The position numbers were made by a program, and so were the translations under genes. 21,938 nucleotides of DNA from IMG/VR virus record IMGVR_UViG_3300009537_000203, positions 1 to 21,938 of that record; one strand, written 5' to 3'. The notes under the pieces are model-generated. The model had not been told where the DNA came from. It saw only the letters and a list, made by a program, of their open reading frames with translations, and did no database searches. Source of the DNA: a virus. Each line of letters opens with the position of its first letter. Within the stretch, counting starts at the first letter, position 1. This document shows, piece after piece, positions 319-6,636 of this stretch.

Positions 319-861
319 ATGTCCACTCTCTTCAAGAGTTTGAGATCCCGCGTACCAGAAGAGGTACCGGAGCGATCTCCAAGCCCTGAGATCCTCGACA
401 TCACGCGGTATCTGTCCGCGCATCAGGTCGAGGCCCTCTCGTTCCTCCTGCAGGGCAGCACGCCCCGGCAGGTCGCCTCGAAGATGGGCGTCAAACTCGC
501 CACCGTCCGCAGTTGGATGACGGACGACGATTTCAAGTGGGCCATGAACTACTCCCGCGCGGAGATCATGCAGCACTCTGTCGATGCCTTGCGTGTTGCA
601 CAGAACGCGGCCGTTACCCTCATGCTCGACGTGATCCAAGACCCCTCAGAGCCCACCACCACGCGCATACGAGCCGCAGGGAAGGTGCTCGACATCACCA
701 CCAAACACGGCGGCATGCCCACGCTCCCGACCGAGGACTCCGCGCGCAGTGTCGAGGAGGAACTCCGGGCCCTTGCAGACAAGGACCCGGATGTGACCGA
801 GCTCCTGCTCGCGCTCGACGAGCGGATGCAGGCCGCACGGGATGAGGCCGGCAGTGGGTAG
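319..861 (+). CDS. Putative terminase small subunit
   Basis: A 180-aa protein directly before the large terminase, the usual place for the DNA-recognition subunit that selects the packaging site and recruits the motor. Residues about 46-67 form a helix-turn-helix-like segment (STPRQVASKMGV..ATVRSW), as in small terminases and other DNA-binding proteins. The following helical part would be the oligomerisation region, and the C-terminus (about 145-180) is acidic and helical. The frame is open from 235, but I chose ATG 319 because the 28 residues before it look non-coding; the ribosome site is weak with either start. The 3' end overlaps the large terminase start by 20 bases, indicating translational coupling. 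The function rests on position plus the HTH; sequence similarity is not strong enough to be sure. Confidence 0.7.
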   Translation: MSTLFKSLRSRVPEEVPERSPSPEILDITRYLSAHQVEALSFLLQGSTPRQVASKMGVKLATVRSWMTDDDFKWAMNYSRAEIMQHSVDALRVAQNAAVTLMLDVIQDPSEPTTTRIRAAGKVLDITTKHGGMPTLPTEDSARSVEEELRALADKDPDVTELLLALDERMQAARDEAGSG

Positions 862-3169
862 CCCCCTGCGCGATGCGGCCGAGAAACTCGGAGCCATCGC
901 CACCCCCGATCGCATGGCAGCCCGCACGGGCGCGTTCATCCGCCACCCGATGGCAGTCCATGTGGGCGAGCAGATCGCGGCTCATGTCAAGGAGGGCAAG
1001 CGCACGGGTGATCCGTGGTATCTCATGCTCGAGGCCCCTCCCAGGCACGGGAAATCCATGCTCGTGTCCCACAAGACACCCCCATGGTTCCTGCAAGACT
1101 GGCCGGGGGGTCATGTCGGGATCGTCACCTACGAGGCCAACTTCAGTGCGTCCTGGGGGCGCAAGGTACGCGACGACATCGAGGAGTACGGAGGGGACTA
1201 CGGGCTCGCCGTGCGCCGGGATTCGCGCTCCATCAGCGACTTCCATCTCACCAACGGCTCCAACGTCTTCTGCACGGGAGTGGGCGGTCCCCTGACGGGT
1301 CGGGGTTTCCATCTGCTCGTGATCGACGACCCCATCAAGAACGCCGAGGAGGCCGCGTCCCCCACGATCCGCGAGAAGCACTGGGACTGGTGGCAATCGA
1401 CCGCATCGACCCGTATCGAGCCAGGCGGCGGCGTGGTGCTGATGATGTGCATGACTGGAGACACTTCAGTGCTCATGGCAGACAGCACCGAACGCCCGTT
1501 GCGAGACATCCGGCCGGGGGATCAGGTTGCCACGTACGATGCCGGCAGGTTGGGCACCTCCACCGTCAGGAACCACAAGAGCAATGGTCCTGATTTCATC
1601 CATGAGATCAAGACGACTTGTGGTACTACTGTCCGTGCAAACGCGCGCCACCCCTTCCTAGTGCGCGAGAACGGACAGGTGCGGTGGACCCGACTGAGAG
1701 ACTTGAGGCCCGGCCAGAAAATCGTAACCGCAAGGGGCGGTGGGGGAAGTGGCGCGGTGTGGTGTGCGGCATCGACGAGTGCGACGAGCCGGTCAGCGCG
1801 CGGGGGTACTGCAAGAAGCACTATGGCAGGAAGTACTGGGCAGATGGCAATCGCCCTCCCTCGACAAGACCCCGAGCCCAACGGAACGCTAAACTCAAGC
1901 ACCTATACGGAATCACCCTGGCTGAGTACGATGCCATGTTCCTGTCTCAGGGTGGGGTGTGCGCGGTGTGCGATCAGCCCCCAGGCGATAACGTACCAGC
2001 GAAGTGGCGGGGGAAGCTCGCCGTCGACCACTGCCACGACACCAACGTCGTCCGGGGGCTGCTGTGCAACCACTGTAACCTTGCCGTCGGGTACGCCAAG
2101 ACAGAGGCCACAGCCAGAGCAATCGTGGAGTACTTCAGACTTCACCACGGCGCAGATTGAGAGCATCACCCCCGCGGGGGTCGAGGAAGTCTTCGACGTC
2201 CAGATCGACCGGACGGAGAACTTCATCGCCAACGGCTTGGTGAGCCACAACACCCGCTGGAACGAAGACGACCTCGCCGGGCGGCTGCTCAAGGCCGCGA
2301 AAGAAGACCCCAAAGCGCCCCAGTGGCACCGCTTCCGCTACCCCGCGATCTGCGAGAGCGACGACGATCCGCTCGGCAGATCCCCCGGTGAGGCCCTCTG
2401 GCCGGACCGCTACGACATCGAGCAACTCGATCAGACCCGCCGGCGCTCGGGTGTCTACTACTGGGCCGCGATGTACCAGCAGCGCCCCGCCCCTCTCGAG
2501 GGCGGGCTGTTCGAGCGCCGTTGGTTCATCCCCGTCGAGGCCCCCTGCCAGCCCCATCTCCCCCGCGTGCGCGCGTGGGACCTCGCCGGCGGATCTCGCC
2601 GCGGCGCAGACTGGTCCGCGGGCGTGCTCTGGGCCCGGAGCCCGACGTCCCCACACCACGTCCGCCTCGAAGACATCAACCGCTTCCAGGGCCGCCCGCG
2701 TGACGTCGAGGAAGAGGTGCTGGCCACCGCGCAGAGCGACGGCCCGTCCGTGGTCATCCAGATCCAGCAGGACCCCGGGCAGGCCGGTCTCGCGCAGGTC
2801 GAGGCCCTGCAGCGGCTGCTGCGGGGGTATCGCGTCGAGGTCTACCGCCCCACGGGCGACAAGGAGACGCGCGCGATCCCGCTTTCCGCAAAGGCCATGG
2901 GCGGCTTCGTCGAGTACGTTCGCGGAGACTGGAACGACAACTTCTTCGCCGAGGGCGCGATGTTCCCCAACGGGGCCAACGACGACCAGATCGACGCCGC
3001 CTCCGCAGGGCTCCAGCTCATCGAGACCATGGCCCCGCGCTCGTTCTTCTATCTCCCTGAAGATACGTATGCCCCCATTCGCCGGCAGACTGCTACACTG
3101 CTCGGCGACATGACCCCCCGCTCCGGCCGCTCCCGTGGCGACTACCGTAAGGTCTTTCGGGATTGGTGA
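842..3169 (+). CDS. terL: Terminase large subunit, interrupted by an intein
   Basis: Packaging motor ATPase and nuclease that translocates DNA into the prohead. The N-extein (residues 1-202) carries Walker A APPRHGKS (65-72) and Walker B LLVIDD (158-163). The C-extein starts with TRWNEDDLAGRLL and holds the RNase H-like nuclease signatures RAWDLAGG, QQDPGQAG and NDDQIDAAS, with their acidic residues. Removing residues 203-470 (1448-2251) joins ..GGVVLMM to TRWNEDD.., restoring the motif expected in uninterrupted terminases. The spliced product would be 507 aa, a normal size for the family. ATG 842 overlaps the small terminase; GTG 854 is an alternative start. In the unspliced frame, residues about 297-430 are low-complexity Ser/Thr/Gly-rich text because the true coding there is an HNH gene in another frame. 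Activity should depend on splicing, since the intein breaks an essential ATPase motif. Confidence 0.93.
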   Translation: MRPAVGSPLRDAAEKLGAIATPDRMAARTGAFIRHPMAVHVGEQIAAHVKEGKRTGDPWYLMLEAPPRHGKSMLVSHKTPPWFLQDWPGGHVGIVTYEANFSASWGRKVRDDIEEYGGDYGLAVRRDSRSISDFHLTNGSNVFCTGVGGPLTGRGFHLLVIDDPIKNAEEAASPTIREKHWDWWQSTASTRIEPGGGVVLMMCMTGDTSVLMADSTERPLRDIRPGDQVATYDAGRLGTSTVRNHKSNGPDFIHEIKTTCGTTVRANARHPFLVRENGQVRWTRLRDLRPGQKIVTARGGGGSGAVWCAASTSATSRSARGGTARSTMAGSTGQMAIALPRQDPEPNGTLNSSTYTESPWLSTMPCSCLRVGCARCAISPQAITYQRSGGGSSPSTTATTPTSSGGCCATTVTLPSGTPRQRPQPEQSWSTSDFTTAQIESITPAGVEEVFDVQIDRTENFIANGLVSHNTRWNEDDLAGRLLKAAKEDPKAPQWHRFRYPAICESDDDPLGRSPGEALWPDRYDIEQLDQTRRRSGVYYWAAMYQQRPAPLEGGLFERRWFIPVEAPCQPHLPRVRAWDLAGGSRRGADWSAGVLWARSPTSPHHVRLEDINRFQGRPRDVEEEVLATAQSDGPSVVIQIQQDPGQAGLAQVEALQRLLRGYRVEVYRPTGDKETRAIPLSAKAMGGFVEYVRGDWNDNFFAEGAMFPNGANDDQIDAASAGLQLIETMAPRSFFYLPEDTYAPIRRQTATLLGDMTPRSGRSRGDYRKVFRDW
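1448..2251 (+). other. Intein in the large terminase, 268 codons in the host frame
   Basis: The intein starts at Cys (TGC 1448-1450) with block A CMTGDTSV. Block B is GTTVRANARHPFLV, with the expected His at intein residue 68 but Asn in place of the usual Thr at 65. Block F is VEEVFDVQ...NFIANG, and block G ends SHN at 2251. The +1 extein residue is Thr (ACC 2252). The insertion point is the conserved TRW motif of the terminase ATPase domain. Between about 1735 and 2157 the host frame has no recognisable DOD or HNH domain; it is a shadow of the endonuclease VII-type ORF in the -1 frame. The splicing domains look complete, so protein splicing is predicted. Confidence 0.9.
1684..2160 (+). CDS. 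HNH endonuclease (endonuclease VII family) nested out of frame in the terminase intein
   Basis: Frame -1 relative to the terminase. The product has a Cys/His cluster (CGIDECDEP, then GYCKKHY) followed by a recombination endonuclease VII-type core: LKHLYGITLAEYDAMF, a CAVCDQPP zinc-binding pair, the catalytic VDHCHD motif, and LLCNHCNLAVG supplying the second Cys pair and the HNH Asn. It would nick or cut intein-less terminase alleles, so acting as the homing enzyme. The start is unresolved: the frame is open from TTG 1618; GTG 1684 has a weak GGACAGG upstream; GTG 1759, just before the first zinc Cys, has GGGGGAAG at 1742-1749. The stop TGA 2158-2160 falls exactly where intein block F begins. 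Alternatively it is expressed as a frameshift product of the terminase, or two sequencing indels have displaced an originally in-frame domain. Confidence 0.8.
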   Translation: MDPTERLEARPENRNRKGRWGKWRGVVCGIDECDEPVSARGYCKKHYGRKYWADGNRPPSTRPRAQRNAKLKHLYGITLAEYDAMFLSQGGVCAVCDQPPGDNVPAKWRGKLAVDHCHDTNVVRGLLCNHCNLAVGYAKTEATARAIVEYFRLHHGAD

Positions 3170-4625: not shown

Positions 4626-4871
4626 ATGGACAAGCCCGTCTTCACCCACTCGCCCGATGCGGTGCTCGATGCATTGCAATGGCTCGCCGAGGGCCACACA
4701 GTCACCCTGGGTAATGTGTTCCATTCAGCCTTGGGCGCTTGGCGTTGCATCATCGTCCCCTACAAGGGCGACATCGGTACCCCAAGCGTGGGGGGTACCC
4801 CTCAAGAAGCGCTCTACAACCAGTTGATGGAGCGGGACATCCCTTGGCCTCCCCCGGACTCGGATGCCTGA
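4626..4871 (+). CDS. Small protein of unknown function
   Basis: An 81-aa protein I do not recognise. It starts with a good ribosome site (AGGAG 4614-4618, spacing 7) that overlaps the portal stop codon, and ends overlapping the next gene by 8 bases, so it is clearly within the head operon. The N-terminal half is helical and acidic (SPDAVLDALQWLAEGHTV), followed by a strand-rich segment (AWRCIIVPYKGDI) and a Pro-rich tail (PWPPPDSDA). No transmembrane segment or signal peptide is visible. Its position between portal and head morphogenesis protein suggests a small accessory head factor, but that is inference. Confidence 0.75.
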   Translation: MDKPVFTHSPDAVLDALQWLAEGHTVTLGNVFHSALGAWRCIIVPYKGDIGTPSVGGTPQEALYNQLMERDIPWPPPDSDA

Positions 4872-6636
4872 CGACCCCCTGCCGAAGCGCAACCCGCTCG
4901 AGCCCTCGTTCCTCGAGATCCTGCGGTCCTTCGTCATGGGCAAGGACTACCCCGAGGCCGAGCTCAACCTCGCGGTCAACGCGTACCTCGAAACCCTCCG
5001 CGCGTACCTGCTCGGGGTACGCAAGACCATCAGGGCGGCCAAGATCGTGGCCCCGTCCGCGGTGCTGGCCTTCTTCAGCCAACTCCCCAAGCCCGACTTC
5101 AAGCGCACCGAAGAGATCGTCCTCGGGCACGCCCCGATGCCCGCCCGGCTCACCCCCGCGCTCAACAACCTGCTCAGCCGGGACCCGTATCTCGCGCAGA
5201 CTGCCGAGGAAGCCGCTGCGACCTTCCGCGCAGGGGGCATCTCGTTCGCTCGCGCGGGCACGACCAGGGTCACCCAACACGTCCAAGAGGTCATCGGGGC
5301 TGCCATGGAGGCCGGCGTGCCCGGCGTCGAGGGCCGGGACATCGTCGCGCAGGCCACGGGCTGGACCAAGGGCTACGCAGAGACGGCGTACCGGACCACG
5401 GCCATGTCCGCGTACACGGGCGGGACCATCGACACGCACCAGAAGCCGTTCATCAGCAGCATCTTCCCCGGCTTCGAGGTCATCGGGTCCAATGACGCCG
5501 ACACCCGCCGCGGGCGCCCCGAAGACCGGGGGGAGAACCATCTCGCCACGCTTCACCTCGTCGCGGAGACGAATGACCCCATCTGGCAGACCCATACGCC
5601 GCCCTTCGGATTCTCGTGCGTCGCGGGGGATACGCGGGTCTCCGGCAGGACCCTCGCCATTACGCGGTCACTCTATGAGGGTCCAATGGTCGAGGTACTC
5701 GTGGGGGGCGGCACGCGGCTTTGCGTAACCGTCAATCACCCCATACCGACCTCCTCCGGGTGGAAGCCTGCGCACCTTGTCGGTCCAGGCGATCGCGTAC
5801 TCCGCGACCGTAGGGTAGTCGATGCGCTCGATCGCGACCCCCGTGCGCGAGTCCCGGGCGCGGATGTGAGGGCACACGACGACAAGGATGTCCCACCCAC
5901 GGCCGAAGAGGTATTCCGCGCGCTCTCGCTTCAGGGAGTACGGGTTAGCTGCCGTCAGGTGCTTCCGGACGATTTCGATGGCGACGGGAGCCGCATGCAA
6001 GGCGATGTCGAGGTTGTAGCGGCCGACAGCCAACTCCTCGGTCGCTGGGTAGCCGCGCGAACGAAGGCACTCAGCGACCTCGTGGTTGTGGAACACACTG
6101 GCACGGTGCCCGACAACTTGAACACCGCGCGCGGTTCGGCAAGCAGCCTCCTCGCTGTTGGGGCACCCGGCCTTGGCGGTCCAGGCTCGTCTGGTGATCC
6201 GGTCTATCATGTCATCGAACTTCCCGGCTTCTCGTGCGCGCTGCCAGCGCAGTTTGCCGGCATCGGACCCACCGCGAGGTTGGATTCCGCGCTCTCCCAA
6301 GCGTGCGATGAAAGTGGGGCGCGAGACCCCTGCTTCGCGAGCAATCTTCAAGACAGATTCCCCCGCGAGGTAGCGTTCGATGAGGTCGTCGAGGTTCGGT
6401 ATCTCGATGCGAGTCCATGTCATGTCTACGACCTTATCACGGACGTTGGCTGGTTCACCGCTAATTCTATTGCTGTCAGCAACTGCAGGCACACTTTGCG
6501 GTCGATCTCTCGCTTCGAGGCCAAGGACCGCGGCTGGCTCAACGCAGACGGCCGTCTGGTGCGCCAGGAGCCCCCAGACTTCGCTGACTACAGTCCGAAA
6601 GAAGGTTTTGGTGGGAAACCTGCATTCAGGACTTGA
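4864..6636 (+). CDS. Mu gpF-like head morphogenesis protein, interrupted by an intein
   Basis: A minor head protein bound near the portal in Mu-like and SPP1-like phages. The N-extein (residues 1-251) is helical, with the family text IVAQATGWTKGYAETAYRTTAMSAYTGG, then EVIGSNDADTRRGRP and HTPPFGFS. The C-extein begins CRHTLRSISRFEAKDRGW. Excising residues 252-540 (5617-6483) recreates PPFGFSCRHTLRSIS, the conserved metal-ligand-like motif of the Mu F domain, and gives a 301-aa protein. ATG 4864 overlaps the preceding gene by 8 bases. The unspliced in-frame linker (about residues 325-500) is not a recognisable domain and lies antisense to an endonuclease gene. The C-extein is only 50 residues, so the intein sits close to the C-terminus. 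Confidence 0.88.
   Translation: MPDDPLPKRNPLEPSFLEILRSFVMGKDYPEAELNLAVNAYLETLRAYLLGVRKTIRAAKIVAPSAVLAFFSQLPKPDFKRTEEIVLGHAPMPARLTPALNNLLSRDPYLAQTAEEAAATFRAGGISFARAGTTRVTQHVQEVIGAAMEAGVPGVEGRDIVAQATGWTKGYAETAYRTTAMSAYTGGTIDTHQKPFISSIFPGFEVIGSNDADTRRGRPEDRGENHLATLHLVAETNDPIWQTHTPPFGFSCVAGDTRVSGRTLAITRSLYEGPMVEVLVGGGTRLCVTVNHPIPTSSGWKPAHLVGPGDRVLRDRRVVDALDRDPRARVPGADVRAHDDKDVPPTAEEVFRALSLQGVRVSCRQVLPDDFDGDGSRMQGDVEVVAADSQLLGRWVAARTKALSDLVVVEHTGTVPDNLNTARGSASSLLAVGAPGLGGPGSSGDPVYHVIELPGFSCALPAQFAGIGPTARLDSALSQACDESGARDPCFASNLQDRFPREVAFDEVVEVRYLDASPCHVYDLITDVGWFTANSIAVSNCRHTLRSISRFEAKDRGWLNADGRLVRQEPPDFADYSPKEGFGGKPAFRT
5617..6483 (+). other. Intein in the head morphogenesis protein, 289 codons
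   Basis: The intein starts at Cys (TGC 5617-5619) with block A CVAGDTRVSG. Block B is CVTVNHPIP, with Thr 38 and His 41 in the TxxH arrangement. A GPGDRVL segment follows at 56-62. The C-terminal part has block F CHVYDLITDVGWFTANS and ends AVSN, followed by Cys +1 (TGC 6484). The penultimate residue is Ser where most inteins have His; other residues are known to substitute there, sometimes with slower splicing. There is no in-frame endonuclease: the linker is the sense-strand shadow of a - strand endonuclease gene. The flanking extein motif is restored exactly on excision, which supports functional splicing. Confidence 0.87.
5668..6423 (-). CDS. Antisense homing endonuclease, HTH plus Vsr-like nuclease, nested in the intein
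   Basis: A 251-aa protein encoded on the strand opposite to its host intein and wholly inside it. Residues about 12-47 form a resolvase-type helix-turn-helix (LIERYLAGESVLKIAREAGV..PTFIARLGERGI), the DNA-binding module often attached to phage homing enzymes. Residues about 111-185 resemble the Vsr/DUF559-like PD-(D/E)xK fold: HNHEVAECLRSRGY, then GRYNLDIAL with Asp 139, then PVAIEI with Glu 150, and a GRGWDILVVV strand. The usual Lys of ExK is not present. The frame is open from 6492, but ATG 6423 is preferred: AAGGT lies 7 bases upstream on this strand (6435-6431) and the start falls at the inner edge of block F. The C-terminal about 45 residues are antisense to block B. Codon phases of the two strands coincide. 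Confidence 0.82.
   Translation of the reverse strand: MTWTRIEIPNLDDLIERYLAGESVLKIAREAGVSRPTFIARLGERGIQPRGGSDAGKLRWQRAREAGKFDDMIDRITRRAWTAKAGCPNSEEAACRTARGVQVVGHRASVFHNHEVAECLRSRGYPATEELAVGRYNLDIALHAAPVAIEIVRKHLTAANPYSLKRERAEYLFGRGWDILVVVCPHIRARDSRTGVAIERIDYPTVAEYAIAWTDKVRRLPPGGGRYGVIDGYAKPRAAPHEYLDHWTLIE

Follow-up and report, generated by a model that had tools for sequence, protein, structure and literature searches.

A phage terminase intein with a probable homing endonuclease encoded in an overlapping reading frame

In canonical LAGLIDADG inteins, a Hint domain is split by an in-frame endonuclease region that belongs to the spliced polypeptide itself. Group I introns with a free endonuclease ORF combine a self-removing element with an independently started endonuclease gene, and their removal takes place at the RNA level. 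Out-of-frame HNH insertions that come without a splicing domain are known from the methylases of phages ShiLan and Pacc40 (PMC11855218); there, an HNH with a GTG start occupies an alternative frame, the host frame is open through the insert and the spread of the element is apparently selfish, but a splicing domain has not been found in these inserts, which remain part of the methylase, and they lack a detected ribosome-binding site. In the terminase large subunit (TerL), the TerL6-f intein of mycobacteriophage Chandler splices readily (Kelley et al. 2016, PMC5050341), and in that study TerL1-b and TerL1-c, both in-frame LAGLIDADG inteins, are the only ones with demonstrated endonuclease activity. 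TerL6-f is reported there only as a splicing-competent intein, and we found no mention in that paper of an HNH in TerL6-f. In the papers we read, no intein is described whose endonuclease is encoded in an alternative frame; a 2025 preprint by Gosselin et al., cited by the group that described the methylase insertions, reportedly deals with actinobacteriophage inteins of "non-canonical architecture" and may already describe overlapping-frame inteins in actinophages.

The locus described here lies in a virus sequence of 21,938 nt (IMG/VR record IMGVR_UViG_3300009537_000203, positions 1–21,938), which is referred to below as the window. Its TerL reading frame is without stops over 797–3166, with an ATG at 842 and a stop codon at 3167–3169, and matches terminase families on both sides of an insert (phrog_38, 5.8e-77; Pfam Terminase_6C, 1.4e-09). 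The insert, TerL residues 203–470, is in all likelihood a mobile intein in which two overlapping frames encode splicing and a separate HNH homing endonuclease, the latter with an internal start at GTG 1684. The features are as follows.

842–1447, plus strand: TerL N-extein (ATPase part), from PHROG terminase matches and extein alignments
1448–2251, plus strand: intein of 268 aa in the terminase frame, Cys1 to His267-Asn268, then Thr+1, from the Intein_splicing match, the member alignment (A2) and AlphaFold2
1448–1741, plus strand: N-half of the splicing domain, residues 1–98, with blocks A and B and invariant Gly76 and Trp80, from pLDDT mostly >90 and alignment A2
1673–1679, plus strand: weak Shine-Dalgarno-like site GGACAGG, whose GGA encodes invariant Gly76, from the Gly codon bias among members
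1684–2160, plus strand: hidden HNH endonuclease of the endonuclease VII type, 158 aa, frame -1, predicted from Pfam, PHROG and PDB profile matches and the conserved start
1742–2134, plus strand: intein linker in the terminase frame, residues 99–229, disordered and stop-free, from pLDDT ~33 and the open frame in 119/119 members
2135–2251, plus strand: C-half of the splicing domain, residues 230–268, with blocks F and G, from pLDDT ~90 or more and alignment A2
2252–3169, plus strand: TerL C-extein with the TRW coupling motif and the nuclease domain, from Terminase_6C (1.4e-09)

The Cys1 codon occupies 1448–1450, and the terminal His267-Asn268 pair ends at 2251, directly before Thr+1. Blocks A (CMTGDTSV) and B (VRANARHPF) are followed, beyond the linker, by blocks F and G (VFDVQIDRTENFIANGLVSHN, then Thr), and the terminase-frame translation matches Pfam Intein_splicing (4.9e-14). 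In alignment A2, which holds 16 members, C1, RANxRHPF, TxNFIA and N268 are invariant; the window and this alignment together display the class 1 features C1, H68, H267 (in at least 90% of members) and N268, and Thr+1 is found in 120/120 members. AlphaFold2 gives confident Hint parts (residues 1–98 and 230–268, pLDDT ~90 or more) and leaves the overlapped part, where the terminase frame at about 1742–2134 reads as Ser/Thr/Gly-rich text, disordered (pLDDT ~33). The model has the Hint fold and resembles DnaB mini-inteins, for example 4o1r, with a TM-score of 0.88 by target length, and a search of 1200–2600 for an intron RNA core gave no Rfam match up to E = 1. By its splicing features, TerL 1448–2251 is thus a true intein of the class 1 type. 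It departs from a canonical bifunctional intein in its endonuclease, which is not in the intein frame: the HNH is in frame -1 both in the window and in 123/123 distinct inteins. The Chandler intein, which is one base apart from that of phage Phlyer, also carries the hidden HNH, and since it splices, it provides experimental support, from one member, for splicing with this linker in place.

Frame -1 is open over 1606–2157 and ends in TGA at 2158–2160. The protein it encodes matches Endonuclease_7 (Pfam, 2.9e-18, above the curated cut-off; PHROG endonuclease VII, 3.8e-29) and contains two CxxC pairs and the motif VDHCHD; in the alignment of hidden HNH proteins, C93, C96, D115, H116, C128, C131 and N132, which include the zinc residues and the catalytic DH, are invariant. 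A PDB profile search with the hidden HNH found T4 endonuclease VII (1.9e-07), and the structure model has a mean pLDDT of 83.5, with a weak fold match to endonuclease VII (best E 4e-03). The hidden HNH is probably the DNA-cutting enzyme that spreads the intein. A preliminary description of this DNA had pointed out the terminase frame that remains open through 842–3169 with intein blocks A, B, F and G, its low-complexity Ser/Thr/Gly text in mid-intein, the -1 frame protein of endonuclease VII type with its Cys pairs and VDHCHD up to TGA 2158–2160, and a run of five G at 1742–1746; coordinates and motifs were correct in each case. Its statement that standard inteins carry the endonuclease in frame also applies at this very TerL site, as documented below.

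Set beside the described systems, the TerL intein has the split Hint domain of canonical LAGLIDADG inteins, but its endonuclease would be a separate protein from another frame. It differs from group I introns in that the host frame is open throughout. The out-of-frame HNH and the open host frame are shared with the ShiLan and Pacc40 insertions, yet here a Hint domain is present that would remove the insert, and a Shine-Dalgarno-like site is conserved, so that the intein appears to work like the ShiLan type without being the same element. Chandler TerL6-f, together with inteins of other B3/B4 mycobacteriophages, has the same coupling-motif site, splicing domain, hidden HNH and HNH start, and is a member of the group to which the window belongs.

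That group was assembled from several sources. Scanning IMG/VR with the HNH yielded nine close loci (L002–L010), and scanning it with the terminase added L040 and L041; in all of these, at 42–61% identity, the HNH occupies frame -1 and whatever intein parts are present read in the terminase frame. In a collection of phage records, hits H1–H36 all fall within terminase genes of Gordonia and Mycobacterium phages, and seven isolate phages inspected singly (Angelicage, Phlyer, phi1_186018, Vivi2, Vincenzo, Keitabear and Chandler) have the same offset. Profile scans brought the set to 179 loci and 123 distinct inteins, drawn from IMG/VR, bacterial genomes and Gordonia and Mycobacterium phage isolates; all have an offset of 2 modulo 3 with both intein halves in one open frame, in a sample gathered with profiles made from hidden-HNH members, in which other arrangements may be under-sampled. 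Members include contigs of genomes labelled Anaerolineae, Bradyrhizobium and Sulfuritalea (L208, L209 and L211). All 120 intact inteins are directly followed by T-x-W (TRW in 101, TWW in 17), and this insertion site in the coupling motif is the TerL6-f site of Kelley et al. (PMC5050341).

Several loci stand apart from this uniform picture. At exactly the same TerL site, L042 (6421–7503), as well as L043 and L044, carries a canonical in-frame LAGLIDADG intein, and one TerL site is therefore used by two endonuclease types. In L187 (1942–2740), the HNH shares the frame of the N-half of the intein and the C-half is in another frame, which is probably a lone frameshift or an assembly error. In L083 (2063–2974) and in L210, there are stops in the HNH frame and the terminase frame is still open; these are possibly decaying endonucleases, or else sequence errors, and the pattern is the one expected if the splicing and endonuclease functions decay separately. 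Three other loci (L008, 4848–5423; L009, 2147–2773; L052, 1824–2405) have a longer HNH N-terminus with a seemingly duplicated CxxxxC...C zinc-finger-like unit.

Both frames of the overlap bear marks of constraint, of different kinds. When the HNH is recoded with synonymous codons, a mean of 2.5 stops is expected in the terminase frame, and none is observed in 119/119 intact members; for the window alone, the terminase frame remains open in 4.6% of such recodings. The third frame has a mean of 10.7 stops. Across 31 non-overlapping pairs, 864, 592 and 1895 differences fall on HNH codon positions 1, 2 and 3, respectively, and the amino acid identity is 79% in the HNH frame vs 58% in the terminase frame, the HNH frame being the higher in 31/31 pairs. 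The third HNH position coincides with the second position of the terminase codons, so that amino acids of the terminase-frame text can change freely within the overlap. Judged by these patterns of substitution, it is the HNH frame on which protein-level selection acts, and the terminase frame is kept stop-free.

The isolate phages offer a view of the intein's distribution. Exteins of Gordonia phages are up to 98.7% identical between records with the intein (18 records) and those that lack it (Brandonk123 and others). The sites at which intein-plus and intein-less alleles differ crowd most densely beside the junction: for Vivi2, 7 of 23 fall within 60 nt on either side, and for Keitabear, 10 of 50 fall in the 60 nt upstream of the junction. 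The inteins of Vivi2 and Angelicage are only 65% identical despite closely similar TerL genes. The occurrence of the intein in some Gordonia phages and its absence from near-identical ones indicate mobility, and presence and absence together with junction-centred divergence fits homing with co-conversion; the junction-centred divergence could also stem from ordinary recombination with another phage. It is conceivable that the HNH is real and expressed and serves the phage, for example in packaging or junction resolution, instead of homing: its nearest solved relative, T4 endonuclease VII, is a resolvase, and HNH proteins have been reported in phage packaging in work cited in PMC12613952. We regard this as improbable, since the HNH sits inside an intein at a single position in TerL, phages that are nearly identical do without it, and the pattern of presence, absence and divergence around the junction resembles homing.

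How the endonuclease is started can be read from the 120 intact members, in which the HNH start (ATG in 98, GTG in 22) is always at one place, formed by the last base of the codon before an invariant Trp and the TG of the Trp codon TGG; in the window, GTG 1684–1686 shares its TG with the Trp80 codon TGG at 1685–1687. Among four-fold degenerate codons before Trp, 33/33 have a purine as their last base vs 45% elsewhere in the splicing domain (p 3.6e-12), and GGA or GGG serves as the near-invariant Gly codon at -11 to -9 in 83% of members vs 34% elsewhere in that domain (p 1.9e-24); both biases hold among 31 representatives with <60% identity (p 2.2e-4 for the purine and 1.2e-7 for the Gly codon), and it is only through this thinning that the p values take kinship into account. 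Shine-Dalgarno-like matches of at least 4 bases are found at 53% of HNH starts vs 6% of other ATG or GTG codons in the inteins; the site in the window, GGACAGG, is weaker than in most relatives. Further upstream in the HNH ORF there is no ATG, GTG or TTG in 108/120 members, and a stop lies at most six codons upstream of the HNH start in 52/120. The bias at synonymous sites of the start codon and of the Shine-Dalgarno-like site favours internal initiation over frameshifting, and the best account is that the HNH would be translated by internal initiation at GTG 1684. Separate initiation at 1684 would uncouple production of the endonuclease from splicing.

Programmed -1 frameshifting from the terminase frame, which would produce a TerL-intein-HNH fusion ending at TGA 2158, has in its favour that the HNH lies in the -1 frame throughout, that the five-G run is present, and that slippery heptamers occur in 39/120 members. 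It is nevertheless very unlikely: the other 81/120 members have no slippery site, the positions are scattered where one is found, and the conserved synonymous start codon and Shine-Dalgarno-like site would be left unexplained. A slip at the G5 run or at another slippery site was set aside for this lack of conservation, and GTG 1759 was rejected as a start because it would cut into the conserved WGKWxGxxC motif and because the start that is conserved corresponds to 1684. The preliminary description had offered GTG 1684, GTG 1759 and frameshifting as routes to the endonuclease; the first, conserved in 120/120 members, is the one favoured. It had also raised the alternative of an in-frame domain displaced by two indels. 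That the HNH is such a decayed or displaced domain, through indels or sequencing error, is hardly credible, for against the HNH-frame stops in L083 and L210 and the frameshift in contig L187 stands a single offset that 123 distinct inteins share, those of isolate genomes among them. This makes the reading fail and speaks for a conserved design, along with invariant zinc and catalytic residues and protein-level selection on the HNH frame.

With internal initiation at GTG 1684 as the preferred reading, the element could operate as follows. The terminase frame would encode a Hint splicing domain whose two halves are separated by a long disordered linker, and the intein would splice itself out to leave an intact TerL. 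Frame -1 over the linker would give rise to a separate, internally initiated HNH protein, whose start codon and Shine-Dalgarno-like site sit within codons of invariant splicing-domain residues. The HNH would cut or nick an intein-less terL close to the insertion site, and the intein would be copied in during repair. Translation from 1684, cutting of DNA by the hidden HNH and its part in homing are what we infer.

The window holds a second intein. A MuF-like head-protein gene on the plus strand (4864–6636) contains it at 5617–6483 (CVAGDTRV ... AVSN, then Cys), and nested there on the minus strand is an antisense ORF (6492–5668), which has weak matches to a helix-turn-helix and to the MTES_1575 nuclease family (the latter 3.5e-05, below the Pfam cut-off). 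Homologous antisense ORFs with 28–35% identity were found by tblastn against phage records in head-gene inteins of Gordonia, Pseudomonas and Cronobacter phages; most of them match the MTES_1575 family weakly, and in each of the eight examined, the window included, the ORF keeps codon register with a head-gene frame that is open. For a single member, such an open frame across the antisense ORF is not significant (P ~0.25–0.3) and is insufficient by itself; the evidence lies in the conservation of a nuclease-like antisense ORF across distant phages. Both hidden types, the TerL HNH and the head-gene antisense ORF, occur together in the Gordonia phages Vivi2 (L225), Keitabear (L226), Fosterous (L228) and Angelicage (L230) and in the window.

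It is probable, then, that these loci represent a widespread class of inteins in which the in-frame endonuclease has been replaced by a separately initiated overlapping gene, with its ribosome-binding site and start inside invariant splicing codons and with mobility and splicing expressed independently, and that a second, antisense form exists in the same phage. Such an arrangement would separate splicing from endonuclease production, unlike in canonical inteins, and each could decay alone. It would also be a clear case of an overprinted gene, the start site being embedded in essential codons. The natural pairs of intein-plus and intein-less phages that grow on one laboratory host make the proposal directly testable. 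Inteins of this sort look endonuclease-free when annotated, and the mobility of many phage inteins is therefore probably underestimated.
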